Positions 15,668-34,687 of a stretch of DNA of 43,950 nt are shown in pieces (within the stretch, counting starts at the first letter, position 1; the number at the start of each line of letters is the position of its first letter). Source of the stretch: a virus; the IMG/VR virus record IMGVR_UViG_3300027759_000153, positions 1 through 43,950 of that record; one strand, 5' to 3'. A program made the translations under genes and the position numbers. The notes beneath the pieces are model-generated. The model had not been told where the DNA came from, ran no database searches, and saw only the letters and a list, made by a program, of their open reading frames with translations.

Positions 15668-15910
15668 TTACTTAGCGCGTTTGAGGTATTCTGTGATTGC
15701 CTCAGAGAACAGCTTGTTAGGCTCGTGTCTCCCAATGAACCAGTTGTAGACGCATTGTTTAGATACGCCAAAGAAGTCCATTACATCGGCTACAGGAATC
15801 TCGCGGGAGATGCAGAATCTCCCTAACTTCACGCCAGTGTTCCGGCCATCGGCATCCCGATTAGCGCGGACAATCTGCTGTGAATACCCAATCACTTTTC
15901 GTCTCCCCAT
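15668..15910 (-). CDS. Small helix-turn-helix DNA-binding protein
   Basis: Eighty residues. The stretch from about 32 to 63 (REIPVADVMDFFGVSKQCVY followed by NWFIGRHEP) reads as a Cro/CI-like helix-turn-helix with a recognition helix SKQCVYNWF. The N-terminus is basic. The gene overlaps the upstream gene by 19 bases and is followed directly by the hairpin at 15597-15662. A regulator of the replication operon, possibly acting at one of the minus-strand promoters, is the simple reading; no target was shown. Confidence 0.7.
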   Translation of the reverse strand: MGRRKVIGYSQQIVRANRDADGRNTGVKLGRFCISREIPVADVMDFFGVSKQCVYNWFIGRHEPNKLFSEAITEYLKRAK

Positions 15911-24402: not shown

Positions 24403-24704
24403 GCTGGTCGCTTTCCTATTTGTTCAAGCACTTCTACTAATTGGTCGATGTTTGTTTCGTTGATCACAAGGGCGTAGCCCATCGCATCCTCTATCGCATT
24501 AAGTTCTCTGCGTTGTAATGCGGTTGTGGTATTCTTGCCCGCCTTGCATTCGATAGCTATGAACTGCCCGCAGTAGCACGCTATGATATCGGGTATGCCT
24601 GATCGACCGAAGCCGTTGCTTGGGGGGAAAAAGAAGTAGGCATCATACTTGTTCAGTATGACTGTTAGTCTACGCTTTACTTTGGTTTCGGGTGTTATTG
24701 CCAT
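24396..24704 (-). CDS. VRR-NUC domain nuclease
   Basis: I prefer the ATG at 24704 (MAITPETKVK) to one at 24722, since the latter lies inside the promoter spacer; this gives 102 residues. The VRR-NUC core is visible: GRSGIPDIIACYCGQFIAIE followed by CKAG, that is the PD...(D/E)xK active site (D in IPDI, E and K in IECKAG). Stand-alone VRR-NUC proteins of this size occur in many phages and cut branched or flap DNA. It is the first gene of the polymerase operon and is expected to be made from a nearly leaderless transcript. Confidence 0.85.
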   Translation of the reverse strand: MAITPETKVKRRLTVILNKYDAYFFFPPSNGFGRSGIPDIIACYCGQFIAIECKAGKNTTTALQRRELNAIEDAMGYALVINETNIDQLVEVLEQIGKRPAW

Positions 24705-24775: not shown

Positions 24776-24804
24776 GGAATCATCGACACGTTGTCGACAA
24801 ATCC
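24776..24804. repeat. 29-bp dyad element, copy A
   Basis: Core TCGACA-CGT-TGTCGA at 24783-24797, with GGA and TCC at the outer ends. It lies between the terminator at 24810 and the promoter at 24711. See the finding on the dyad family. Confidence 0.85.
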
Positions 24805-24809
24805 AAGAC

Positions 24810-24836
24810 AAAAAAAGACCCGCACTTGGCGGGTCT
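24810..24836 (-). terminator. Intrinsic terminator of the MoxR-VWA operon
   Basis: An 8-bp perfect stem AGACCCGC (24816-24823) with GCGGGTCT (24829-24836) and a five-base loop. A run of seven A bases at 24810-24816 gives the U-tract on the minus strand. It stands eight bases after the stop codon of the gene at 24844-25734 and closes the operon that begins near 32040. Confidence 0.9.
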
Positions 24837-24843
24837 CTTACTA

Positions 24844-25734
24844 TCACTCGTGCATCATAGCGAATAGCGAATCTAGTATGTAGAAGTTTCTATCGTTGTA
24901 TCGATAGCCTACATCATCTACTAGTTCGCTGTCCTCCATTAGCTGAAGCACGGCTAGGGCACTCTGTGCTTTCTCCGGCAGCTCGTCAAACTGTTTGTAT
25001 TCCACAGCATGGGAGTCAGCATGAAAGCGTTTGACAAGAAACGTATTGCTGTACTGCACAACTATTGCGTACTGCTTATCCGTCATCTTTTCAGCAAGCA
25101 TAAACTCAAGCATTGCTTTCTCATACTTCTCGGACAGGAAGTCCTTACGCATTAGTTCGCTTACTTCATTAGGTATCTCCTCTCCGCGTAGCAACAGATA
25201 GATATACCTTTGTACAATTGTAGAACTTGGTATCATGGTACTGTTACTTATCGGTCGCATTAGGTCCCGTATAGCACCCGAGAACGAAGAGTATATCGCT
25301 GTGTTTGCTTTCTCGATAACCTCTGCCGCTATCATAGGTATGAAGGTCTTCTTCACGATGCGTACCGCACCCATCAGCTTGCTAGTGGTACTCGTGTTAG
25401 CGTTACCCCGTTGGTTATCAATACGCCACGACTTGATACAGTAGACTTTCTCTGTCGGACCGCTACGCGCATAGCGAGTATCGATAGAGATTTCACCGAG
25501 ATGCTCAGTGCCTTTGTAGACACGCACCATACGCAAGAACTCTACGCCCTCGGGGGGTACGATAGTCCTGTCCTGTATAGAGGACTTACTCGTGTTGTAG
25601 TTGATGTCTTGCTTGCTCATACCCTTAGTAGTAAAGGTAAACGCTGGCATGTCTAGGGCTAGTTTGTTTACCAACTCTGCTAAGAATGGGTCAAGCGCAT
25701 AGATTGCGGGTAGTTGTATGTTTGCAAAGGTCAT
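24844..25734 (-). CDS. Hypothetical protein, last gene of MoxR-VWA operon
   Basis: A 296-residue soluble protein without signal peptide. Residues 60-115 look beta-rich (VEFLRMVRVYKGTEHLGEIS); residues 120-296 are mixed helical with an acidic end (DSELVDDVGYRY). It starts five bases after the stop of the preceding gene and its ribosome site is weak. It is in the same transcript as the AAA+ and VWA genes, ahead of the terminator, so it may be a substrate, adaptor or structural partner of that machine. I recognise no family. Confidence 0.5.
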   Translation of the reverse strand: MTFANIQLPAIYALDPFLAELVNKLALDMPAFTFTTKGMSKQDINYNTSKSSIQDRTIVPPEGVEFLRMVRVYKGTEHLGEISIDTRYARSGPTEKVYCIKSWRIDNQRGNANTSTTSKLMGAVRIVKKTFIPMIAAEVIEKANTAIYSSFSGAIRDLMRPISNSTMIPSSTIVQRYIYLLLRGEEIPNEVSELMRKDFLSEKYEKAMLEFMLAEKMTDKQYAIVVQYSNTFLVKRFHADSHAVEYKQFDELPEKAQSALAVLQLMEDSELVDDVGYRYNDRNFYILDSLFAMMHE

Positions 25735-25739
25735 AGTTA

Positions 25740-26624
25740 TTACCAGTTGAATTTGTTGAGGATGTCTTGGACATTCGTTCTAAGTTCTAGTCGTGCGCCA
25801 ACATCAGAACGTAAGTCGTCTATGTCGGTCGTTGTCACGGCCTGCTCTAGCATACGTCGTGCTTTCTCCAGCTCTGGGTCTTTCGTGACATTGAGTCGGG
25901 TCAGCAGGTCGCATAGGTCTATAGCGTTGTCGATCAAAGAGTCACGGAAAATCTTACGATCACCGTCTTCTTTGTCAGTCAGCTTATCAGTCATGTGCAT
26001 CAGCACAGCGTGCAACCTATCCCATGGGTCACGCATAGCTTCTGATAGCTTGTCGCTAAACATCTTCTCGTACTGCTCTTGCAAGTCAGCCTTGACGCGA
26101 GCCTCGCAGTTGATGCGGAAGTCACCACTCTCAGGCACAGGCAGGAAGTTGTACTCGAACTTAAAGCGACGAGGTAACGTATCTACATCAGGAAACTCAT
26201 CAGCACGATAGTACTTGCCTAGCTTGAACGCTTGGTCGTTCTTGATCTGCGGATAAGCAATGATGAAGTCTTTGACTAGCGCATGGAAGTTAGCCTCCAT
26301 CGTACCGAGTTGCTCGCGATACTTGAAGAAGTTCTCCATAGGTAGTAAGCCGACACCCTTCATCCAAGGCAAGGTCTGCGTTGAGTTCCATGCTCTGCAC
26401 TTGGCCGAGTACTTCTCTATCTTCTTGAGGTGATCACTGCCCGCCATGAGGTACTTGTATACCGAGCCCGCATCTTGGTCAGCTTCCTTGGATGTGTTGA
26501 CATCCATGGTGGTTTCGTTGTCACGCTTGCGTGCAGTCCATGTGCTGATACGCAACTCCACGAGCATAGCCATGGATGATAGGGAGACCACGGGACCCGT
26601 GATCGTCATTGTATTCTCTGTCAT
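25740..26624 (-). CDS. DUF3150-like protein (tentative)
   Basis: A 294-residue, mostly helical protein. The N-terminal part (LVELRISTWTARKRDNET) and the middle (LPWMKGVGLLPMENFFKY) recall DUF3150 proteins, which on conjugative elements and some phages are encoded beside a CobS/MoxR-type ATPase and a CobT-like VWA protein. That match is from memory and needs a profile search. Here the ATPase and VWA genes stand upstream in the same operon, which supports it. A good AGGAG site precedes the start. Function is not known; a substrate or adaptor for the ATPase is possible. Confidence 0.5.
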   Translation of the reverse strand: MTENTMTITGPVVSLSSMAMLVELRISTWTARKRDNETTMDVNTSKEADQDAGSVYKYLMAGSDHLKKIEKYSAKCRAWNSTQTLPWMKGVGLLPMENFFKYREQLGTMEANFHALVKDFIIAYPQIKNDQAFKLGKYYRADEFPDVDTLPRRFKFEYNFLPVPESGDFRINCEARVKADLQEQYEKMFSDKLSEAMRDPWDRLHAVLMHMTDKLTDKEDGDRKIFRDSLIDNAIDLCDLLTRLNVTKDPELEKARRMLEQAVTTTDIDDLRSDVGARLELRTNVQDILNKFNW

Positions 26625-26642
26625 AGGATTCTCCTGATTAAA

Positions 26643-27689
26643 TTAAATAGATTTTTCGACAACCTGTCGAAGTTTCCGAGGTACAAAAGTGTGATCTTTA
26701 AAGAACTTAGTGTTAGTACGCGATGGCTTAGTACCCTTGGGCAGGCGTACGCGCTCAAACACTTGATCTCTGTGCAAATAGGACACGAACGTCTTCATCC
26801 AATCGACCGTGTTCACGATGCTTAGTTTTCTTGAGCCCCCCGATGCCCACATGTGACTACCTGCTTGATTGGCAATGATGTGCAGTAGTTGCACCCACTC
26901 GCTAGGGTCGCCCCTGTCCAACATAGACTGCGCCTTCTTACACGCCATAGGATGAAAGCCTACGCCTCTACGCCAATCGTTATAGCCGTAGCCAAACGGT
27001 ATAGCATCACGCGCATAGCGTTCTTCCCACAGATCGTCACGCTCTTGCGGTGATAGCTTCTGCTCGTTACTAGCCTTGTATTCTTCAGCGGAGAAGAATC
27101 CTAAGTCCGTAGCAAACTTCTCGAACGAGGGGTTGATCTCACTGTGCTCGAATGTATCCGTAACTGCGAGCACAACTTGCGCCCACGATAAGAACGCTTC
27201 ATACCTCTGCATGAATTCATTTACCTTACCTCGCCTAGCCCGCGTGTTATACGCAACAGGGGCAGTGAGCAGGAACGACTTACCATCTACATACTGGAAG
27301 TCAAGCCTACCGGTATGGCGCGGTAACTCATACATCTCTGTGCGAGTGTGGTTCACGCAGTAGAACATACGCCCTTCACTCCACAAGAAGTTCTGAGACA
27401 CATCTGGTAAGAAGTTATGGATGTTGTCGGGCGTGTACGCACTATAGTACTTGGGTGCAAATACAGAATAGGTATTGTCCGAACGCCACTCGACGAGCGT
27501 CTGTCCGTAGTACCGCAGATGCACCGTGTTGTCATCCGGCATATGGATGTCGGCCATGTAGTGATGCTGACGACTACCCAATGGGCGAATCTTGTCCTTG
27601 TGCCCACGGATAGGTTTAGTTTTATCGTGCCAAGATTTCACGGCCTCAAAGCCCGCTACCTTGCGCACGCATGCTGTGTTATAGCCCAT
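26643..27689 (-). CDS. Hypothetical protein of the MoxR-VWA operon
   Basis: A 348-residue soluble protein. Residues 40-150 are rich in Tyr, His, Asp and look like a beta-structured domain (VHLRYYGQTLVEWRSDNTYS); the rest is helical with Trp and Tyr. The C-terminus is basic (RKLRQVVEKSI). The last coding bases contain a dyad element (26649-26677), so the dyad also encodes KLRQVVEKS. It overlaps its upstream neighbour by 11 bases. No family recognised. Confidence 0.55.
   Translation of the reverse strand: MGYNTACVRKVAGFEAVKSWHDKTKPIRGHKDKIRPLGSRQHHYMADIHMPDDNTVHLRYYGQTLVEWRSDNTYSVFAPKYYSAYTPDNIHNFLPDVSQNFLWSEGRMFYCVNHTRTEMYELPRHTGRLDFQYVDGKSFLLTAPVAYNTRARRGKVNEFMQRYEAFLSWAQVVLAVTDTFEHSEINPSFEKFATDLGFFSAEEYKASNEQKLSPQERDDLWEERYARDAIPFGYGYNDWRRGVGFHPMACKKAQSMLDRGDPSEWVQLLHIIANQAGSHMWASGGSRKLSIVNTVDWMKTFVSYLHRDQVFERVRLPKGTKPSRTNTKFFKDHTFVPRKLRQVVEKSI
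26649..26677. repeat. 29-bp dyad element, copy B, inside a coding end
   Basis: Core TCGACA-ACC-TGTCGA at 26656-26670. The right arm is TTTCC; the left is AGA instead of GGA. Unlike the other copies it is within a reading frame, at the very 3' end of the 26643-27689 gene and about 31 bases before the next start. Confidence 0.8.
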
Positions 27690-27867
27690 TTGATTTTCCC
27701 TTCAATAAAGAATGTTGAATAAAAGACATACTCTTGGAGAGCATGTGGATATCAAGCAACTGTTTCTGATGCTTTAGTACAGTGTTCTCGCTTACGAGAG
27801 AACCTATGTGGGGCTTATCGCCCTTCTTATAAACAACCTGACCTTTGGCTAATACGACTAGTGGCAT
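27679..27867 (-). CDS. Small basic hypothetical protein
   Basis: Sixty-two residues from ATG 27867 (MPLVVLAKGQ). A GTG at 27888 would extend it by seven residues into the dyad element and is less likely. It is helical and basic, with Lys, His and Leu in the second half. It overlaps the next gene by 11 bases. No family recognised. Confidence 0.5.
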   Translation of the reverse strand: MPLVVLAKGQVVYKKGDKPHIGSLVSENTVLKHQKQLLDIHMLSKSMSFIQHSLLKGKSNGL

Positions 27868-27874
27868 ATGGTTC

Positions 27875-27903
27875 GGATTCGTCGACACGGTGTCGATTAC
27901 TCC
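27875..27903. repeat. 29-bp dyad element, copy C
   Basis: Core TCGACA-CGG-TGTCGA at 27882-27896, outer GGA and TCC. It begins eight bases before the ATG at 27867 and its right arm covers the stop codon of the gene at 27897-28058. Confidence 0.85.
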
Positions 27904-28058
27904 GCCTCCCCGTTGTAGAAAGCTATCAAGTGTTTGACCACCTGACCGTTGGTAGGTTGAAAGCCTAGCTTGGACACGAGCCCTTCCCTTACCTCTTGCA
28001 GTAACTCAAAGGTTTCTTGGTTAAGCGTGACCACAAAGTTTTGTACAGTCGGTTTCAT
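27897..28058 (-). CDS. 53-residue ribbon-helix-helix-like protein
   Basis: ATG at 28056-28058 overlaps the stop of the previous gene (ATGA), and TAA is at 27897-27899. The sequence opens with a beta-like strand (VQNFVVTLNQ), then an amphipathic helix (ETFELLQEVREGLVSKLG), a PTNGQ turn and a second helix (VVKHLIAFY). This strand-helix-helix order and length match Arc/MetJ-type repressors, which bind DNA dyads as dimers. There is no direct proof of DNA binding. Since dyads flank the gene, it is a candidate for the protein that binds them. Confidence 0.55.
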   Translation of the reverse strand: MKPTVQNFVVTLNQETFELLQEVREGLVSKLGFQPTNGQVVKHLIAFYNGEAE

Positions 28059-28297
28059 CGTCTCTGCTCCATGATTTCTTTTGCATTGGCTTCAACTTCC
28101 AATCTCAGCAGTGCCGTGATCGGAGTAATGAATGCCGCTTTGATGTCAGGCTTTACGAACATCGTCACATTGGTAGTACGCACGCCATTCCACTCTTTGC
28201 CGAGTTGGTTGCAGGCGTTAAGTGTTTCGCATACACGCAATGCTTCCTCGATGTCCAAGACAAACTGTTCACCACCTATATGTAATAGGACTTCCAT
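28055..28297 (-). CDS. Small hypothetical protein
   Basis: Eighty residues, beta-like at the start (EVLLHIGGEQFVLDI) and helical later. An AAGGAGG site overlaps the end of the VWA gene, with the start one base after the VWA stop. It is coupled to the ribbon-helix-helix-like gene by ATGA. No family recognised. Confidence 0.5.
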   Translation of the reverse strand: MEVLLHIGGEQFVLDIEEALRVCETLNACNQLGKEWNGVRTTNVTMFVKPDIKAAFITPITALLRLEVEANAKEIMEQRR

Positions 28298-28298
28298 T

Positions 28299-29576
28299 TC
28301 AAACCTCCTTAATAGTTACAAGTTGACCCTTTGGTGGGGTATAGCTTGCGTTGCCGATGATGCACCACAGGATTGGTACATTGAGTCGCGCCCACCCCGG
28401 CGGATTGCTGTGCATATACCCATCAGAGAGCATCACGAGAGCATCAGGCTTGAGCTTATTTTTCTCCATAAACTCAGGTACGCAATCAGGATTAGTACCA
28501 CCACCACCTTTGGGCTTTGTCTTGTGGACAATGTCAGACAGGTGAAGCGTGTACGTCTCATGCCCGTTCACATTGGTATCCCAATACAAAACATCGACAC
28601 GATCAGGTACAACATCCAAGATGAGTTTATTAAACTCAGACATGAACGCATCGAGCAGAGGTCCGTGTACAGAACCTGACGTATCCATCGCTATCACGAG
28701 GTGCTTCATCTTCTTACCGATGATCGCAGGCAGGATAACGTCTTGCCACAAGTAGTTCTTGTGGGCTTTGCGCCACGATGGTGCTTCACGCCCACGCAGA
28801 TTGGTTTTGACAAACCGCTTAAGCACAGCCCGCCAGTCAACCTTCGGTGCGAGAAGTTCGCCTATCTCTCTGGACATATTGCCACCTACTTTGCCAGCAT
28901 AGATTGCGCCTTGACGCAGCGCGTGATCGATGTCACGTTCTAACTGCTTATTCTCGTCTTCAGACAGGCCATCCTTCGCGCCTTCCCAATCGTGCTCATC
29001 GAGGGAATTACCGTCAGGTTGTCGATTAGTCCCTCGATGCTCGTTCCCATCTTCACCAACAGGACCATCACCATCTCCATCCTCATCGCCACCTCCGCCA
29101 CCACCTTCTTCTTGCTCATCACGCAGGATGTCAAACACTTGGCGTGCATCCATACCACGGAAGCGTGTGTCAAAGCACCCCTGATACTTACCAGTCTTGG
29201 GGTCGCGAGGGTGAGAGATCATGCTCTCGAGTTGGTCCATGTCAAACAACTGAAGATTGATCACATGATCACAGGCACGATTGGCTAAGTCGTGGTCGAT
29301 GTCATGCAAAGACTTCCATGTCGTCAGGTGACGATAGCACTTGTGCATGTTCTCGTGCATTACCAGAAAGGCCAATTCCTTATCTGTTAAGCTGTCTACG
29401 AATGCGCGACCATACTCCGCATCGCGACCATTGGTGCGTGCAGTTGGTACAAGTTCAGACACACTCGTCTTACCTACCATAAACAGACCCGCGAACAAAG
29501 CGAATTCTTTGTTGCGCATCAGGCTCACATGAACAAGTTCTATGCGTTGCTCAGCCGTTAGTTTTCTCATTAGCAT
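28299..29576 (-). CDS. VWA protein with N-terminal metallopeptidase motif
   Basis: A 425-residue protein with three parts. Residues about 60-140 contain H74-E-N-M-H78, the HExxH zinc motif, in a context like the DUF2201 putative metallopeptidase region. Residues about 155-215 are an acidic, Gly-rich linker. Residues about 285-425 are a VWA domain with a full MIDAS: D297-T-S-G-S301, T360 and D384. This architecture, next to a MoxR-type ATPase gene, is that of MoxR-VWA (CobS/CobT-like) pairs, where the ATPase remodels targets bound by the VWA partner. The ribosome site is GAGGAG. The target here is unknown. Confidence 0.82.
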   Translation of the reverse strand: MLMRKLTAEQRIELVHVSLMRNKEFALFAGLFMVGKTSVSELVPTARTNGRDAEYGRAFVDSLTDKELAFLVMHENMHKCYRHLTTWKSLHDIDHDLANRACDHVINLQLFDMDQLESMISHPRDPKTGKYQGCFDTRFRGMDARQVFDILRDEQEEGGGGGGDEDGDGDGPVGEDGNEHRGTNRQPDGNSLDEHDWEGAKDGLSEDENKQLERDIDHALRQGAIYAGKVGGNMSREIGELLAPKVDWRAVLKRFVKTNLRGREAPSWRKAHKNYLWQDVILPAIIGKKMKHLVIAMDTSGSVHGPLLDAFMSEFNKLILDVVPDRVDVLYWDTNVNGHETYTLHLSDIVHKTKPKGGGGTNPDCVPEFMEKNKLKPDALVMLSDGYMHSNPPGWARLNVPILWCIIGNASYTPPKGQLVTIKEV

Positions 29577-29706
29577 TTCTATGCTCCTCTCGTTGTTGAA
29601 TTACAAATACCTCGATGTCATGCGCGGCCTCATGCTCACCTATCAGGCGCAGTTGTGCCGCGAACGCCATGCCCGCTTGGTACAAGTTGTCGTACTGGTT
29701 AGTCAT
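29551..29706 (-). CDS. 51-residue hypothetical protein overlapping VWA start
   Basis: ATG at 29704-29706, stop TGA at 29551-29553. The product is helical and charged (YQAGMAFAAQLRLIGEHEAA). It overlaps the upstream gene by eight bases and the VWA gene by 26 bases. Its length and placement suggest translational coupling that sets VWA expression. No family recognised. Confidence 0.55.
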   Translation of the reverse strand: MTNQYDNLYQAGMAFAAQLRLIGEHEAAHDIEVFVIQQREEHRNANEKTNG

Positions 29707-29965
29707 TGTTTAACTCCGCAATGATCTTCAACTTGTTATAGGTATCGGCATCAACTTCCTGCCAACGCCCTGCGCTTGTCATGCGATCACCAAAGTCATA
29801 CATGTTGACCGTGCCGTCGCCCGCTTGCGAACCATCAATGCCCCAAAACGTAGAGGCAAGCGCATCGAGATGCTCATCTGGGTGATCATCTGTCGTGAAC
29901 TTAACCATCGTGCTTACTTCGCTCTCACCAAAGTAAGTCTCAATCTCTCCGATGTAGTGCTTCAT
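29699..29965 (-). CDS. Small acidic hypothetical protein
   Basis: Eighty-eight residues with many Asp and Glu (FTTDDHPDEHLDALAS) and a Gly-rich stretch near residue 45. An AAGGAAG site precedes the start, and ATGA joins it to the upstream gene. It lies between the AAA+ and VWA genes. No family recognised. Confidence 0.55.
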   Translation of the reverse strand: MKHYIGEIETYFGESEVSTMVKFTTDDHPDEHLDALASTFWGIDGSQAGDGTVNMYDFGDRMTSAGRWQEVDADTYNKLKIIAELNND

Positions 29966-30222
29966 TGCATCTTCCTTGGTTGTTTATCAATAACTATTGC
30001 TACGTCTTCCAGCTTGGTTATCCTGCTGTTGGACAACGGCACGGATGTATCGAACTCCATGGACAGGCGTGTCCATACAGTTGCGTTCCACTTGGCTAAG
30101 CGTTGGCTTGTGATGTGTATCCATCGCCCGCTAGTCTTGTCGACTACATCAAAGCCGTCATTGACTGGCACGATGTAGCAGTTGCGATAGCTGACAGGGG
30201 TTCCGATCTTGGTAGTTTTCAT
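29962..30222 (-). CDS. Small hypothetical protein
   Basis: Eighty-six residues, predicted mostly beta (VSYRNCYIVPVNDGFDVVDK) with a basic centre. The leader CCAACCAAGGAAC before its ATG resembles leaders at 17187, 21306 and 29966. Dyad D stands between it and the ATPase gene. No family recognised. Confidence 0.55.
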   Translation of the reverse strand: MKTTKIGTPVSYRNCYIVPVNDGFDVVDKTSGRWIHITSQRLAKWNATVWTRLSMEFDTSVPLSNSRITKLEDVAIVIDKQPRKMQ

Positions 30223-30241
30223 TTAAGTTCCTTGGTTGGTT

Positions 30242-30270
30242 GGAGTTTTCGACAGGATGTCGATTTATCC
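30242..30270. repeat. 29-bp dyad element, copy D
   Basis: Core TCGACA-GGA-TGTCGA at 30249-30263, outer GGA and TCC. It covers the stop codon of the ATPase gene and lies about 20 bases upstream of the next start codon (30222). Confidence 0.85.
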
Positions 30271-31341
30271 CTTGAGTCCGGCAAACATGTACTGGTTCTC
30301 ACGAGCCCATGTCACGAACGCAGGGTGTGCAATAGCCCAATTCTTCTTAGCTTTAACTTCGAGTAAGCTATTGATGAAGAGTGCTTGTGCTTCTTTAGGC
30401 ATACGCTTAACAAAGCGCATCCATGTTCCGAATGTTTCACGAGTGCATGTAGATACACCCTTGAACATCAAGATACATTGGGCCGCTGGACTTGTGGGCA
30501 AGGCCACAGTGTCAGGGTTAGACTCGATAGCCTCGCGGGTCGGGAGTTGATCAGCCATCGATACATACGCTTGCAAGTCACGCGATGCAGAGAAGCCGAG
30601 AGTGCCGTCGAGTGCGGCAATCAATGCGTTGTCAGTCAGGCGATCACGGATGGATACCCAATGCGATGCCTTGAACAACGAGCGAGGAGACACGAACGCA
30701 ACCTGTGATGCGTCATGTGGGTTGAAGATGTACGGGTTCTGTTGTTGCCCGCCATCCTGATACGATGCCATGCAATGGGGATACTCACGCACCCATGCTT
30801 GCACCTCGGGTGCTACACCATGGTTGATAGCCCAAGCTAACCATTCTTCAGCATTGGGTTTCATGTAGGGAGCCCATGTCTGACGGTTGCGTGTATGTGC
30901 CTTAGCAGAGTCACCGACACCATCGGCATCATCATTACCAGTAGTAAAGACAATGGAGTCCGAGTGCAGATAGAAGCTACCCATGCGACGCTCATGTAGT
31001 AGAGGGTGCAGGGTGTTACGGACATAGTCGTCGGTCTTGGTCCACTCGTCGATCATGATTACGCATGGCTCGTTGAGATGCAACTTGAAACTCTCAGCAG
31101 GATAGAAGTCCAAGGTGCGTGTCGTGTGGTTGGGTATGGGCATGCCCGCCTGACCCACATCGGTGTTCGGACCATCGATATACACCTTGTGATAACCCGT
31201 ACGCTCTACGATCACATCGTGGATCGCGGTTTTACCAACACCTGGTTCGCCAGTAAGGTGTACTGAGTTATGCCCGCTATTGAGGATGAGATCAACGGCT
31301 TCGGTGAAGTTGATGCGACGAGAGTGTTTGATTTCTGACAT
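30265..31341 (-). CDS. MoxR-type AAA+ ATPase
   Basis: A 358-residue ATPase. Walker A is GEPGVGKT (K37, T38) and Walker B VIMIDE (D98, E99). A FTTGNDDADG segment near 132 fits sensor 1, and an Arg-containing NRQTW lies near 150. The placement of GQAGMPIPN between the Walker motifs is usual for MoxR/CobS-like proteins. It should form a hexameric ring that works with the VWA protein encoded 2 kb downstream. In phages, such ATPases are often labelled CobS although no cobalamin pathway is present. No other nucleotide-binding protein is in this operon. Confidence 0.85.
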   Translation of the reverse strand: MSEIKHSRRINFTEAVDLILNSGHNSVHLTGEPGVGKTAIHDVIVERTGYHKVYIDGPNTDVGQAGMPIPNHTTRTLDFYPAESFKLHLNEPCVIMIDEWTKTDDYVRNTLHPLLHERRMGSFYLHSDSIVFTTGNDDADGVGDSAKAHTRNRQTWAPYMKPNAEEWLAWAINHGVAPEVQAWVREYPHCMASYQDGGQQQNPYIFNPHDASQVAFVSPRSLFKASHWVSIRDRLTDNALIAALDGTLGFSASRDLQAYVSMADQLPTREAIESNPDTVALPTSPAAQCILMFKGVSTCTRETFGTWMRFVKRMPKEAQALFINSLLEVKAKKNWAIAHPAFVTWARENQYMFAGLKG

Positions 31342-31368
31342 TTTAATTTCCTAATAAAAGAAGAGAAA

Positions 31369-31397
31369 GGAATAGTCGACACCATGTCGACCGTTCC
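31369..31397. repeat. 29-bp dyad element, copy E
   Basis: Core TCGACA-CCA-TGTCGA at 31376-31390, with GGAA/TTCC outer arms. It lies between the zinc-ribbon gene (stop at 31402) and the ATPase start (31341). Confidence 0.88.
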
Positions 31398-31401
31398 GAG
31401 G

Positions 31402-31659
31402 TTACGAACGTGGGTACTTCTGATTGGTATCTAACAAAGTCTGTGGTGCAGACGCATCAGTTACCAACATGTAAGGACCTTTGCCGTAGGGTTGCACTAC
31501 ACACCAAGATTGGCGTGCAGAGATCGCGGCTTGATTGCCGCAATGCAGACACAAGCGATAGCCCAAGGCATAACGCTCGTGGTGGATGTCGTCACCGCAC
31601 ATGGCACATGAATGCCAGGCTGTGTAATCGTCATCGTATTCTGTAGTATGGTGAGTCAT
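31402..31659 (-). CDS. Small zinc-ribbon protein
   Basis: Eighty-five residues from ATG 31659 (a TTG at 31662 is in frame). Two CxxC pairs (CAMC at about 18-21, CLHC at about 37-40) with two histidines between them form a probable zinc ribbon, preceded by a His/Asp-rich N-terminus. The start shares one base with the upstream stop codon (TGATG). It is a possible small regulator or adaptor of the MoxR-VWA operon; the family is not certain. Confidence 0.6.
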   Translation of the reverse strand: MTHHTTEYDDDYTAWHSCAMCGDDIHHERYALGYRLCLHCGNQAAISARQSWCVVQPYGKGPYMLVTDASAPQTLLDTNQKYPRS

Positions 31660-31832
31660 CAATCAATCTCCCAATAAGTAATGACAAGTTCTTCCGTCGC
31701 AGGATTGCGATAGAAATGAATCTCTGTGTAGGCACGACCCTCACGCACGCACTCATCGAGTGCTTGCAACCAACTGAGTGCTTTGCCGTTGAAGGGGATA
31801 GGCTTGCGCCATGGGAGTCGATACAACTGCAT
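31659..31832 (-). CDS. Small hypothetical protein
   Basis: Fifty-seven residues from ATG 31832 (MQLYRLPWRKPIPF), whose A is shared with the TGA of the upstream gene. Trp- and Arg-rich N-terminus, acidic C-terminus (ELVITYWEID). Coupled to genes on both sides by TGATG overlaps. No family recognised. Confidence 0.55.
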   Translation of the reverse strand: MQLYRLPWRKPIPFNGKALSWLQALDECVREGRAYTEIHFYRNPATEELVITYWEID

Positions 31833-31921
31833 CACGGTCTCCAATAGAAGAGGTCGAGGGCAAGCACAATGAGTGCGAGGGCAATGATGAAGCGTGAGAA
31901 ACGCTCGAAGTCAGTAAACAT
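31832..31921 (-). CDS. 29-residue membrane peptide gene
   Basis: ATG at 31919-31921, TGA at 31832-31834. After a charged start (MFTDFERFSR) comes one hydrophobic helix (FIIALALIVLALDLF) and a short tail. TTGGAG is at a good distance before the ATG and the stop overlaps the next start, which support a real gene. It is the first gene after promoter 32040-32068. It may sit in the inner membrane; the role is unknown. Confidence 0.55.
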   Translation of the reverse strand: MFTDFERFSRFIIALALIVLALDLFYWRP

Positions 31922-31957
31922 AGGTATCTCCAATAAAAGAAATGACACAAGTGATTT

Positions 31958-31986
31958 GGAATAGTCGACAGGGTGTCGAAGAATCC
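31958..31986. repeat. 29-bp dyad element, copy F
   Basis: Core TCGACA-GGG-TGTCGA at 31965-31979, outer GGAA and ATCC. It is in the leader of the operon made from the promoter at 32040-32068. Confidence 0.88.
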
Positions 31987-32025
31987 GGAACCACGGAGAA
32001 AAGTACATAAGAAGTTCTACTAGCT

Positions 32026-32042
32026 AATGTACTTCGTACATT
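32026..32042. promoter_or_regulatory. 17-bp palindrome at the start site of the MoxR operon
   Basis: AATGTAC-TTC-GTACATT, seven-base arms with a three-base centre. It covers most of the -10 to start-site region of the 32040-32068 promoter, which is the usual place for a repressor operator. The protein is unknown. Confidence 0.6.
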
Positions 32043-32068
32043 ATAACATACATTCTTGACAAAGTCAA
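32040..32068 (-). promoter_or_regulatory. Sigma70 promoter of the MoxR-VWA operon
   Basis: On the minus strand: TTGACT (32063-32068), 17-base spacer, TATAAT (32040-32045). A GAC-N3-GTC dyad overlaps the -35 box, as in two other promoters of the window. Transcription would begin near 32033 and run through the operon to the terminator at 24810-24836. Confidence 0.82.
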
Positions 32069-32099
32069 GACCCTCTCCGTGTTTTAGCACACCAATCCG

Positions 32100-32807
32100 T
32101 TATTTGGAGGCGAGGTCCCAATCATCCGCAGATTTGGTAAGCAAGCGACGCTTACGCTCTTCGATGGCCTTGAAGATTGAGCCGTTGAACAACTCATCCA
32201 CGTCGTCATCCGATACTGTGGGTTTGTCCTCCAATAATTTCTTGGTGACACCGGTCATTTGCAGTATTGGCTTGAAGTCATGAGCACGTTCGTGTGGCAA
32301 CTCTTTATGTTGGCGCAATGCGGGCGGCAAACCCCGAGCGTCGACACCGCTAAGCATGGCGCTGTCTTGTAGCATCTTGAGTACGTCGAGTTCCATGGGG
32401 CGAGCCGCTTCTATAGCTTCAGCAGTGGGTAACAAGTGAGCCAGCTTTTCCTGCTCGGGCAGTAGGTCGGTGAAGAACCCGTTGGCCACGCCCGTTTTGC
32501 CCGCCATGGCAAAGCGACGAGCAACAGTCGTTTGGTTCTCGGAATGGTGGTAAGGGTTTACGCAATGGGTTGTGTTGCACCATTTCACAAGCCGACGCGA
32601 TGCTGGCACATATCTGCATGTGATAAACAAGATACGTGTGACCGAGTTGGTCAGCATGGCCTTGGTTAGTGGCGAGTAAGGACTGATGACGGGCGATGCT
32701 TTGGGGTCGTTGGCGAAGTCACTGGTGGGCCAAACGATGCACATGCCTTGGGTCGTGCAGTTGTTTATCAAATCATCTGCGGTTCTGTATTTTTGGATGC
32801 GTGACAT
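32100..32807 (-). CDS. HNH-like Cys/His protein
   Basis: A 235-residue protein. Cysteines at 17, 23, 64, 77 and 82 and the segment WCNTTHCVNPYHH (residues 76-88) match the zinc-binding end of HNH-type endonucleases (C...C-x-NP-x-H). The C-terminal half is charged and helical (KAIEERKRRLLTK). It could be a homing-type nuclease or a DNA-binding regulator that kept only the zinc module. It is alone between two strong promoters, with its own at 32887-32915. Confidence 0.6.
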   Translation of the reverse strand: MSRIQKYRTADDLINNCTTQGMCIVWPTSDFANDPKASPVISPYSPLTKAMLTNSVTRILFITCRYVPASRRLVKWCNTTHCVNPYHHSENQTTVARRFAMAGKTGVANGFFTDLLPEQEKLAHLLPTAEAIEAARPMELDVLKMLQDSAMLSGVDARGLPPALRQHKELPHERAHDFKPILQMTGVTKKLLEDKPTVSDDDVDELFNGSIFKAIEERKRRLLTKSADDWDLASK

Positions 32808-32886
32808 GGTTGCCTTTCGGTTATGTAATGAATACTCAATAAGTTTACGAGGGAATTTCGAGGAAAAACACTGCCCGTAAGGTTAC

Positions 32887-32915
32887 ATTATAAGGGTTGA
32901 ACTTATCTTATTCAA
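32887..32915 (-). promoter_or_regulatory. Sigma70 promoter of the HNH-like gene
   Basis: On the minus strand: TTGAAT (32910-32915), 17-base spacer, TATAAT (32887-32892). The expected start is near 32880, giving a leader of about 73 bases before the ATG at 32807. No other gene lies between. Confidence 0.75.
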
Positions 32916-32961
32916 GGGGTGTTTTACACATTTATGCGGGTTGTGAGACGATATTGTAATG

Positions 32962-32976
32962 AATAAATGAACCGCT
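32962..32976. repeat. 15-bp inverted repeat, left arm
   Basis: AATAAATGAACCGCT; its reverse complement is found exactly at 33084-33098, 107 bases away. Could be a protein-binding pair or a cruciform base. Confidence 0.85.
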
Positions 32977-33083
32977 CAGGTAAATTGGAATATTGTAAAC
33001 GAAGATTTATTTTTTTCGGGATAGTCAAGAAGCAGAATCGGAAAAAACGCGCCCAAGCTATACAATTTCCTCGGGTTTCCCTT

Positions 33084-33098
33084 AGCGGTTCATTTATT
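33084..33098. repeat. 15-bp inverted repeat, right arm
   Basis: AGCGGTTCATTTATT, exact reverse complement of 32962-32976. It is followed by an AT-rich tract. Confidence 0.85.
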
Positions 33099-33186
33099 AT
33101 TTATTTTATTAAGATAGATAGATAGAGAAAACAAGGACTTACGAGTTTTGAGAGTGCAAAATAAGATAACGTAAGATGCCTAAATG

Positions 33187-33208
33187 TAAGGTTCTGAGGA
33201 TAACCTTA
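33187..33208. repeat. Hairpin in the non-coding region
   Basis: TAAGGTT and AACCTTA arms with an eight-base loop. There is no T-run that would make it a terminator on either strand. Confidence 0.6.
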
Positions 33209-33338
33209 TCTTTGATCTAAACCGTTGCTTGTATGCAACTAATAAGAGCGAATTGGGCTTTGAATAATGTGCCAGGCCATGTGTGTGCGAGTCTTGACGG
33301 GCATCGCACTTGCCGACGGGCTGACTCGATCAGGGCGC

Positions 33339-33367
33339 GGAAAAAACGTCAAAATGTCGAAAACTCC
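33339..33367. repeat. 29-bp dyad element, degenerate copy I
   Basis: Right half TGTCGA is intact, left half is ACGTCA; outer GGA and TCC are kept. Its reverse complement shares the first 13 bases (GGAGTTTTCGACA) with copy D, so it is a relative in inverted orientation. It is in the non-coding region. Confidence 0.6.
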
Positions 33368-33423
33368 GCCGTTGCGACAGGAACTGGCATCGTAGATGCG
33401 GAGCACACGACGCATTTTGGGCG

Positions 33424-33459
33424 AAAAAAAACGCCCGCCACGCAAAAGCATGACGGGCG
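33424..33459 (-). terminator. Strong intrinsic terminator
   Basis: A 12-bp stem (33432-33443 with 33448-33459, two G-U pairs on the RNA) with a four-base loop, and eight A bases at 33424-33431 that give the U-tract on the minus strand. It follows the small membrane protein gene by five bases and ends the transcript from 34339. Confidence 0.9.
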
Positions 33460-33464
33460 AATTC

Positions 33465-33623
33465 TTACTCACCGACAAAGTAAAAGCCAAGTGATGACAC
33501 AGTTGAAAGCATGGCGACCCAAAAGAAGGTCAGCGACTCGTCGCCAAGCGCAAGCACAGACACAATGAAGGCTATGAAGCAAATCAACGCCTTAAACGCA
33601 AAAAACTTGTAAAACTTATCCAT
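33465..33623 (-). CDS. 52-residue membrane protein, two helices
   Basis: ATG at 33621-33623 with TTGGAG before it, TAA at 33465-33467. A basic, aromatic N-terminus (MDKFYKFFAFK) leads into two hydrophobic helices (about 9-27 and 32-50) separated by GDES, ending VGE. Size and topology recall small class II holin-like or early membrane-active peptides, but no lysis genes are nearby, so I do not call it a holin. It is followed directly by a strong terminator. Confidence 0.6.
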   Translation of the reverse strand: MDKFYKFFAFKALICFIAFIVSVLALGDESLTFFWVAMLSTVSSLGFYFVGE

Positions 33624-33648
33624 AACGAACTCCAATAAAGGTTAAAAC

Positions 33649-33677
33649 GGAATGATCGACACCATGTCGACCATTCC
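33649..33677. repeat. 29-bp dyad element, copy G
   Basis: Core TCGACA-CCA-TGTCGA at 33656-33670. The outer arms GGAATG and CATTCC are fully complementary, making this the most symmetric copy. It is between the genes ending at 33686 and starting at 33623. Confidence 0.9.
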
Positions 33678-33685
33678 TTGCGGGC

Positions 33686-34339
33686 TTAGCCCAAGATCAT
33701 TGCCACTTGCGTGAGCAATTCGACCGCATCAGGCGTGCCTGACTTAGCCAACTCTTTCACACGAGTGTTGATCTTATCGGTCAGAGCCTTCAACTCTGCC
33801 TTCTCAGCATCGATTGCCGACGCATTACGACGGGCGACTTCGGCATTGAGCTTTTTTGCCTCATTCAAAGACTTGTTGTCACCTTTACGCAACAACTCAG
33901 TTTTGCGCTCAATCAGGTCATCGTCGGCAAACTCAGCCAGCTTCTCGATTTCCTTAGCCTTAGCCTCTGCCTTGCGCACCGCATCCTTCGACTCAGACTT
34001 AGGCTTGACGAAATCAAAGGTTGACACGCAACGATTGATCTGCCTCTCCCAAATCTTTTGAGCCGCATCATCCGAGCGACCCTTGTCAATGTTGCCCGCT
34101 TTGTGAAAGTCACGCACGAGCATGAACTCAGAGTAAGACAAACCCTTGATAATGTCATTCAGATTTGAATCCAAGACATCGAGGGCTTGCTTACCCTTAG
34201 CCATCAGCGCCTCAGCCGCACCGGTTTCTTCGCCAATGGTGAAGATCGTATCCTGCAACTCGACGGCAGGCTTGCCGTGAATCATAGGAACAGGAACAGC
34301 AATAGCAGAACTTGCAACAGAAGTATTTGTCATGATCAT
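33686..34339 (-). CDS. Helical hypothetical protein
   Basis: A 217-residue protein. Residues 60-100 read as a folded domain (GLSYSEFMLVRDFHKAGN). Residues 110-190 are a charged helix rich in Ala, Lys and Glu, likely coiled coil. Cytoplasmic by sequence. The leader includes dyad H and a hairpin TTGGC/GCCAA (34356-34371). First gene of a short unit ending at the terminator at 33424. No family recognised. Confidence 0.55.
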   Translation of the reverse strand: MIMTNTSVASSAIAVPVPMIHGKPAVELQDTIFTIGEETGAAEALMAKGKQALDVLDSNLNDIIKGLSYSEFMLVRDFHKAGNIDKGRSDDAAQKIWERQINRCVSTFDFVKPKSESKDAVRKAEAKAKEIEKLAEFADDDLIERKTELLRKGDNKSLNEAKKLNAEVARRNASAIDAEKAELKALTDKINTRVKELAKSGTPDAVELLTQVAMILG

Positions 34340-34371
34340 TTCCTCAATTAAAGGGTTGGCAAGATCGCCAA

Positions 34372-34399
34372 GGAATCGTCGACACTTGACGATGATTCC
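34372..34399. repeat. 28-bp dyad element, copy H (variant)
   Basis: GGAATCG-TCGACA-CT-TGACGA-TGATTCC: two-base centre and one change in the right core half. Outer arms GGAATC/GATTCC are complementary. Between G and H the sixth outer base pair changed from G-C to C-G on both arms, so symmetry is kept. Confidence 0.8.
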
Positions 34400-34687
34400 C
34401 TATCGGCAGACGATCAATCTGCTGATGATGTATATTAAGGGATGGGTCAGATAAAGGGTGAAACTCCACACAGCCATTCAATGCTATGTTATGGAAACAT
34501 CGCTAAAAAAAATCGACTTGCTCGCCGGATAAACCTTGGCGTTCGTGAGCCTGGTCGGAGAACACGGTGCGGGTTTGTAATCGGTGGATAGGAGAACACC
34601 ACCGTGGTGGGTAGGGGCAGTATTGGTAGTAGGTACCATCACGCGAACATACACAGTGTTCCGCGCAAAGGAAGAGCAAAATTTAAA

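Follow-up and report, generated by a model that had tools for sequence, protein, structure and literature searches.

The early operon and its dyads

The window analysed here is the whole of the IMG/VR virus record IMGVR_UViG_3300027759_000153, 43,950 bases in length. Its minus strand carries an early operon of roughly 10 kb, and through that operon are spread ten copies of a long dyad whose half-site consensus is GGAATAATCGACA. This report deals with the dyads and with p215, the protein encoded by the operon's first gene, which we propose to be the regulator that binds them.

All of the features of the operon given here are on the minus strand and are taken in the order of transcription. The p215 gene is at 33686–34333, with an upstream in-frame ATG at 34339 as an alternative start. 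In its leader is dyad A (34372–34399), a 28-bp variant, GGAATCATCGTCAAGTGTCGACGATTCC, which 23 relatives have in the same aligned position, with a conserved promoter-like block upstream of it. Dyad B (33649–33677) is exact and immediately follows the p215 stop codon. Dyad C (33339–33367) is degenerate, with two core mismatches, and has a counterpart in the relatives upstream of the gene for a 235-aa protein, p235 (32100–32807). Dyad D (31958–31986) is exact and is about 50 bases downstream of a promoter-like TTGACT-17-TATAAT (32068–32040). The gene of an AAA (MoxR-like) ATPase (30265–31341; phrog_1297, AAA_5) has the exact dyad E (31369–31397) ahead of it and the exact dyad F (30242–30270) over its stop codon. 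Dyad G (29004–29032) is within a DUF2201 metallopeptidase-like/VWA gene (28299–29576), at the same place in 12 relatives aligned. Dyad H (27875–27903) is exact and overlaps the stop codon of the gene for a 53-aa protein (27897–28058). Dyad I (26649–26677) has AGA/TCT at one outer end and is at the 3' end of a 348-aa gene, before a DUF3150 gene (25740–26624; E 2e-5, just below the curated cut-off). A rho-independent terminator-like hairpin (24813–24839), conserved in 15 relatives aligned, closes the unit. Directly past it is the exact dyad J (24776–24804), about 70 bases ahead of the next start. The intervals between dyads run from 0.3 to 1.9 kb.

Nine of these copies were described at these positions in the initial annotation, and their confinement to the minus-strand early region holds for all ten. 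Dyad G is the tenth and was missed there. The core TCGACA-N3-TGTCGA is confirmed as exact in seven of the nine, the other two being degenerate. The length had been given as 28–29 bp; it is generally 29 bp, and the 28-bp copy at 34372 has a 2-base centre. Seven copies had been placed 8–43 bases before a start codon, while our recount, made on the sequence with likely start codons of our own choice, finds six, about 19–38 bases before the start. The ten matches at no more than two core mismatches compare to a mean of 1.56 and a maximum of 5 in 100 dinucleotide shuffles of the window, and a reversed-pattern control gave no match in the window or in any of 18 other records.

Conservation of the sites

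A search of IMG/VR with an 18-base pattern, of the kind the initial annotation had proposed, recovered 51 stretches on about 40 contigs, many of them with multiple copies. Either the sites fall in the same operon or the terminase is closely related in all but one of 18 further records examined. The exception is G015, with a single site; its terminase is unrelated (22%), and the match is therefore probably due to chance. The better-covered relatives have about 5–9 copies per record. Random placement in related genomes would have spoken against the set, according to the initial annotation; the sites instead hold the same gene junctions across the relatives. At p215 they stand in the leader and behind the gene; others precede p235, flank the AAA gene on both sides, lie within the VWA gene, precede the DUF3150 gene and follow the operon terminator.

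The possibility that the dyads belong to a host regulon, controlled by a LexA-like or other host factor, found no support. The full pattern has no repeated copies in 84,980 species genomes of bacteria and archaea (257 Gb), only three single matches, where about four are expected by chance on our own estimate.

Protein p215 and the switch in site type

The sites come in two types within the clade, differing at half-site position 4. Most genomes have A (GGAA), and C (GGAC) is favoured in both halves in G002, G009, G013, L011, L014 and L052. The window and G009 are 94–97% identical in the AAA, DUF3150 and terminase proteins; the figure is 98% for the 53-aa protein and 99% for an 80-aa protein encoded at 15668–15910. 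The identity in p215 is only 48%, and in p235 it is 50%. Residue 125 of p215 is K in all rows of the clade with GGAA-type sites and R in all rows with GGAC-type sites. The copy inside the VWA gene, dyad G, also tracks the site type of its genome, ending in ..TTCC in the GGAA type and ..GTCC in the GGAC type, and it does so at the expense of an altered peptide, which speaks for selection on the nucleotides.

Distant homologues of p215 occur in L105, L106, L121, L127 and L135, and these phages also have 29-bp dyads, of other sequence. In L121, TAACA-N3-TCCG..CGGA-N3-TGTTA occurs four times, and in L135, GAACA..TGTTC occurs four times. L127 has one GGACA..TGTCC dyad, and L105 and L106 each have one GAACAAATCGAA.. 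dyad, directly upstream of p215. In all five, base 4 is C and residue 125 is R, as the rule predicts. Across at least five lineages, which differ in site sequence, the p215 family goes together with bipartite dyads of 29 bp. There is a second rule, in which K at residue 121 goes with G at site base 2 and M goes with A. Loci fetched after the rule had been seen, using two p215 sub-alignments to obtain later homologues, obey both: L194, L195 and L196 have K121, R125 and GGAC, and L199 and L201 have M121, R125 and GAAC. Among 35 distinct proteins, no two-residue column other than 121 predicts base 2 perfectly, and there are three parsimony changes of each. In the same 35, R at column 125 is always found with C, and K with A except in L045, where there is an A/T tie in one element. 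Residue 69 was an earlier correlate of base 4. It matched the GGAA/GGAC split within the clade and failed in L105, L106 and L198–L201, which have E69 with C at base 4.

Neither a PHROG or Pfam family nor any of 50,697 phage records matches the protein. AlphaFold models it as all helix (predicted local distance difference test, pLDDT, 85), with a helix pair at 67–83 and 88–106 followed by a basic helix at 116–132. That helix contains R120, K121 and K125 and is the proposed recognition helix. The regulator family is probably new.

We put the probability that the dyads are DNA operators for p215 at about 0.72. Several points weigh against this assignment. No known DNA-binding domain was matched in p215, the predicted template modelling score (pTM) of its model is 0.50, and a fold search with the model gave no significant match. 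The residue correlations involve only about 2–3 changes on the p215 tree, so they are strong circumstantial evidence rather than proof. Since the first gene and the dyads are inherited together, p215 may in part track the sites by shared descent. Several of the distant pairings involve one or two sites on partial contigs. In L202 the usual place is empty; a fitting site, with GAAAT and GAACA halves, is directly past its p215 gene, and its one GAAAT half-site counts against the assignment. There is a strand-specific excess of G-U over A-C oppositions in the dyads (82 to 35 in the arms, 17 to 7 in the core and ends), which an RNA role could also give. Finally, that p215 would repress, and would do so by the roadblock discussed below, is what we infer from sequence.

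Other proteins and other roles for the dyads

The operators might be bound by another phage protein, either the HNH-like p235 or the 53-aa or 80-aa proteins, the last two having been put forward in the initial annotation. We consider this unlikely. The two small proteins are nearly identical between genomes of different site type, as noted for the window and G009, and are rejected as binders since a change of the sites leaves them as they are. No column of the 53-aa protein separates the site types, and no 80-aa protein was found in G013, whose record has the sites but is possibly incomplete. For p235 there are points in favour. It is kept in the operon of the clade, it diverges fast (50% identity between the window and G009), and its C..C.NP.H motif forms a Cys/His cluster; I-PpoI comes top in the fold search with its model, although at E 3.4 this is not significant. 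However, p235 has no unanimous column separating the site types, and the distant loci with p215 and 29-bp dyads yielded no p235. An N-terminal Y/F change in p235 seemed to follow the sites and then failed in L014, which has GGAC sites and a GGAA-type p235 N-terminus.

Apart from the question of the dyads, the cluster in p235 has the conserved form C.....C.NPYH, like that of HNH nucleases, and the usual first histidine is mostly absent. The protein is possibly DNA-binding without nuclease activity.

The other alternative raised in the initial annotation was RNA hairpins in leaders and processing sites. We regard a role of this kind, in leaders and between cistrons and for processing, stability or translational control, as very improbable. 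The dyads do sit in transcribed leaders and between genes, and the excess of G-U over A-C on the mRNA strand is in the direction that hairpins would produce. The complementary outer arms noted in the most symmetric copies are not a general property, however, and the covariation test that had been called for is negative. Reading 128 distinct elements in the sense of the mRNA gives 212 Watson–Crick pairs between the N4 arms, compared to 213.9 ± 8.8 when the right arms are shuffled, and fewer than with arms shuffled within genomes. With G-U included, the count is 294 compared to 288.4 ± 8.8. Because this is not above the shuffle, base skew in the columns accounts for the G-U excess. In addition, when half-site base 4 switches it does so in both arms, and a residue of the protein changes with it. 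Dyads of sister phages are symmetric to a 0- or 1-base centre (CTAACATGTTAG; TTTCGTAC-N-GTACGAAA), so that the inner pairs would be unable to form in a hairpin, the spacers being too short for the full structure. The first suggestion of the initial annotation, a DNA operator set for one regulator, is the one supported by the conserved placement and the lack of arm covariation, and we take it as supported by these sequence comparisons that the dyads behave as DNA operators.

The N15-type centromere (SopB/parS) consists of several dispersed long inverted repeats in a phage genome, and by that likeness p215 might bind the dyads for DNA maintenance, compaction or segregation rather than gene control; this is highly doubtful, as no ParB_N domain was matched in ten records and the sites are restricted to leaders, gene starts and stop codons of one transcription unit, ending at its terminator.

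Dyad sets in the wider terminase clade

The sample of the wider clade consisted of 82 loci, being 80 terminase relatives and two named phages. At least three identical dyads with 6-bp arms were found in 24 of the 82 and in none of their shuffles. When the arms were set to 5 bp and spacers of up to 30 were allowed, some two dozen of the 80 had at least four identical dyads, and no shuffle did. Sequence and geometry vary with the lineage: CTAACA with spacers of 0–2 bases, TTTCGTAC-N, TTTCATAC-N, TTACTGTC-N, TTAAGTC-N, AACCTACA-N3, AGGGTTAC-N5 and TAAACA-N2. They are mostly upstream of terminase, in the AAA/VWA/DUF3150 module where that is covered, and often right before starts. On our reading, the ATG can fall inside the dyad in the CTAACA phages. 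The AAA genes of L111, L113 and L115 also contain dyads, at a single conserved offset (L111 4792, L113 4727, L115 4736), so sites in coding regions are not confined to the clade of the window.

The type of dyad goes with the family of the first gene. Family C12 is found with TAAC-based dyads, C17 with dyads of 15–17 bp centred on C-N-G, and p215 with the 29-bp form. No homology was found between p215 and the first genes of the sister phages by profile comparison, and the first-gene families have no detectable homology to each other. Shared ancestry of gene and site could give part of this association. The Synechococcus phage MinM2 (OQ594354), whose record names Synechococcus as the host, has about 20 GGTTCAG-N-CTGAACC dyads, many of them 21–22 bases before annotated starts; its first gene encodes a 187-aa product (MM2_92). 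In the stretches read of the nearest named phages by terminase (DSL-LC04, HTVC027P, 023Pt_psg01 and HTVC023P), no such dyad set was detected at this sensitivity.

Proposed mode of action

Returning to p215 as the regulator, we presume that it binds as a dimer, with one monomer per half-site. The outer box, GGAAT, would be read by helix 116–132 and the inner box, TCGACA, by another part of the protein. With dyads A and B flanking its own gene, p215 would autoregulate, and as it accumulates it would hold down the early operon. Overlap with promoters is not seen as a general rule for the dyads. Dyad A is some tens of bases after the conserved promoter-like block; it and dyad D are downstream of promoter-like sequences, and so the sites lie in transcribed DNA, spread to the terminator. 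Bound there, p215 may be a roadblock to the host RNA polymerase. We infer that a block to elongating polymerase together with autoregulation is the best-fitting action, as with stoperators. Dyad J is upstream of the next promoter and could act at that promoter instead.

The block upstream of p215 has its own conserved layout in the aligned relatives. At about 34420–34480 (minus strand), TGTGGAG-N4-CACCC is followed by a TATTAT/TATAGT-like box. It looks like an unusual early promoter.

Relationship to known systems

No description of these dyads was found in a limited literature search. The closest parallel is to the stoperators of cluster A mycobacteriophages (L5, Bxb1 and TipsytheTRex), which are temperate. 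Stoperators are asymmetric 13-bp sites, mostly in one direction and 20–30 per genome, and they are bound by a monomeric repressor with helix-turn-helix and stoperator domains (PMC6550527, PMC9283540). Common to both systems are the many copies of one site, most of them outside promoters, and a consensus that differs between lineages in step with the regulator. The sites here differ in being symmetric 29-bp dyads, about ten in number and in one operon, and no similarity between p215 and a known repressor was detected. There is also no tyrosine integrase in the ten records searched, which may be incomplete and were not searched for serine integrases. The system would work like stoperators, but it departs from them in site symmetry, regulator family and, apparently, temperate life style. 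Symmetric operators and autoregulation of the regulator gene, the latter proposed here, are also features of lambda-type repressor/Cro systems; those operators are clustered on promoters, whereas the dyads are spread through the unit. The lytic Haloferacalesvirus HF2 has repeated intergenic elements, of which the class II repeats are 29 bp, containing AT-rich archaeal promoter motifs (PMC8707807). The length is common to both, but the dyads here either lie downstream of promoter-like sequences or stand apart from them.

Until now, it is mainly the temperate mycobacteriophages that have been known to have dispersed operators read by one phage protein. Here, the same logic would operate in aquatic phages without a detected integrase, through an undescribed regulator family and with a protein–DNA code legible from sequence. 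We give about even odds to a broader proposal, with p215 as the founder of a new family of helical, dimeric DNA-binding regulators whose targets, bipartite dyads of 29 bp, are read by a legible code (residue 121 to base 2, residue 125 to base 4). Across the terminase clade, the first gene would have been replaced repeatedly by unrelated proteins, with about 5–15 operators rewritten each time in both sequence and geometry, which would make this a rapidly diversifying operator system of apparently non-integrating phages. The sister lineages make it testable how a regulator changes specificity, or gets replaced, when ten or more sites must follow.

Other features at promoter-like sites

A second dyad, TTGACWWWGTC, lies over the -35 box of three minus-strand promoter-like sites, at 32068–32040, 24738–24711 and 17237. 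The copies are TTGACTTTGTC, TTGACATAGTC and TTGACAAAGTC, and the first two places are conserved in the relatives. This dyad could be the operator of a second regulator. A candidate for that regulator is the 53-aa protein, which is conserved across the clade and has a strand-helix-helix look like that of ribbon-helix-helix regulators, with no Pfam match. The gene of a Holliday-junction-resolvase-like protein at 24704 (minus strand) is preceded by TTGACA-16-TACATT, with the ATG about 7 bases on, in a layout that is conserved. The gene seems to begin at the transcription start, and therefore its mRNA may be leaderless.

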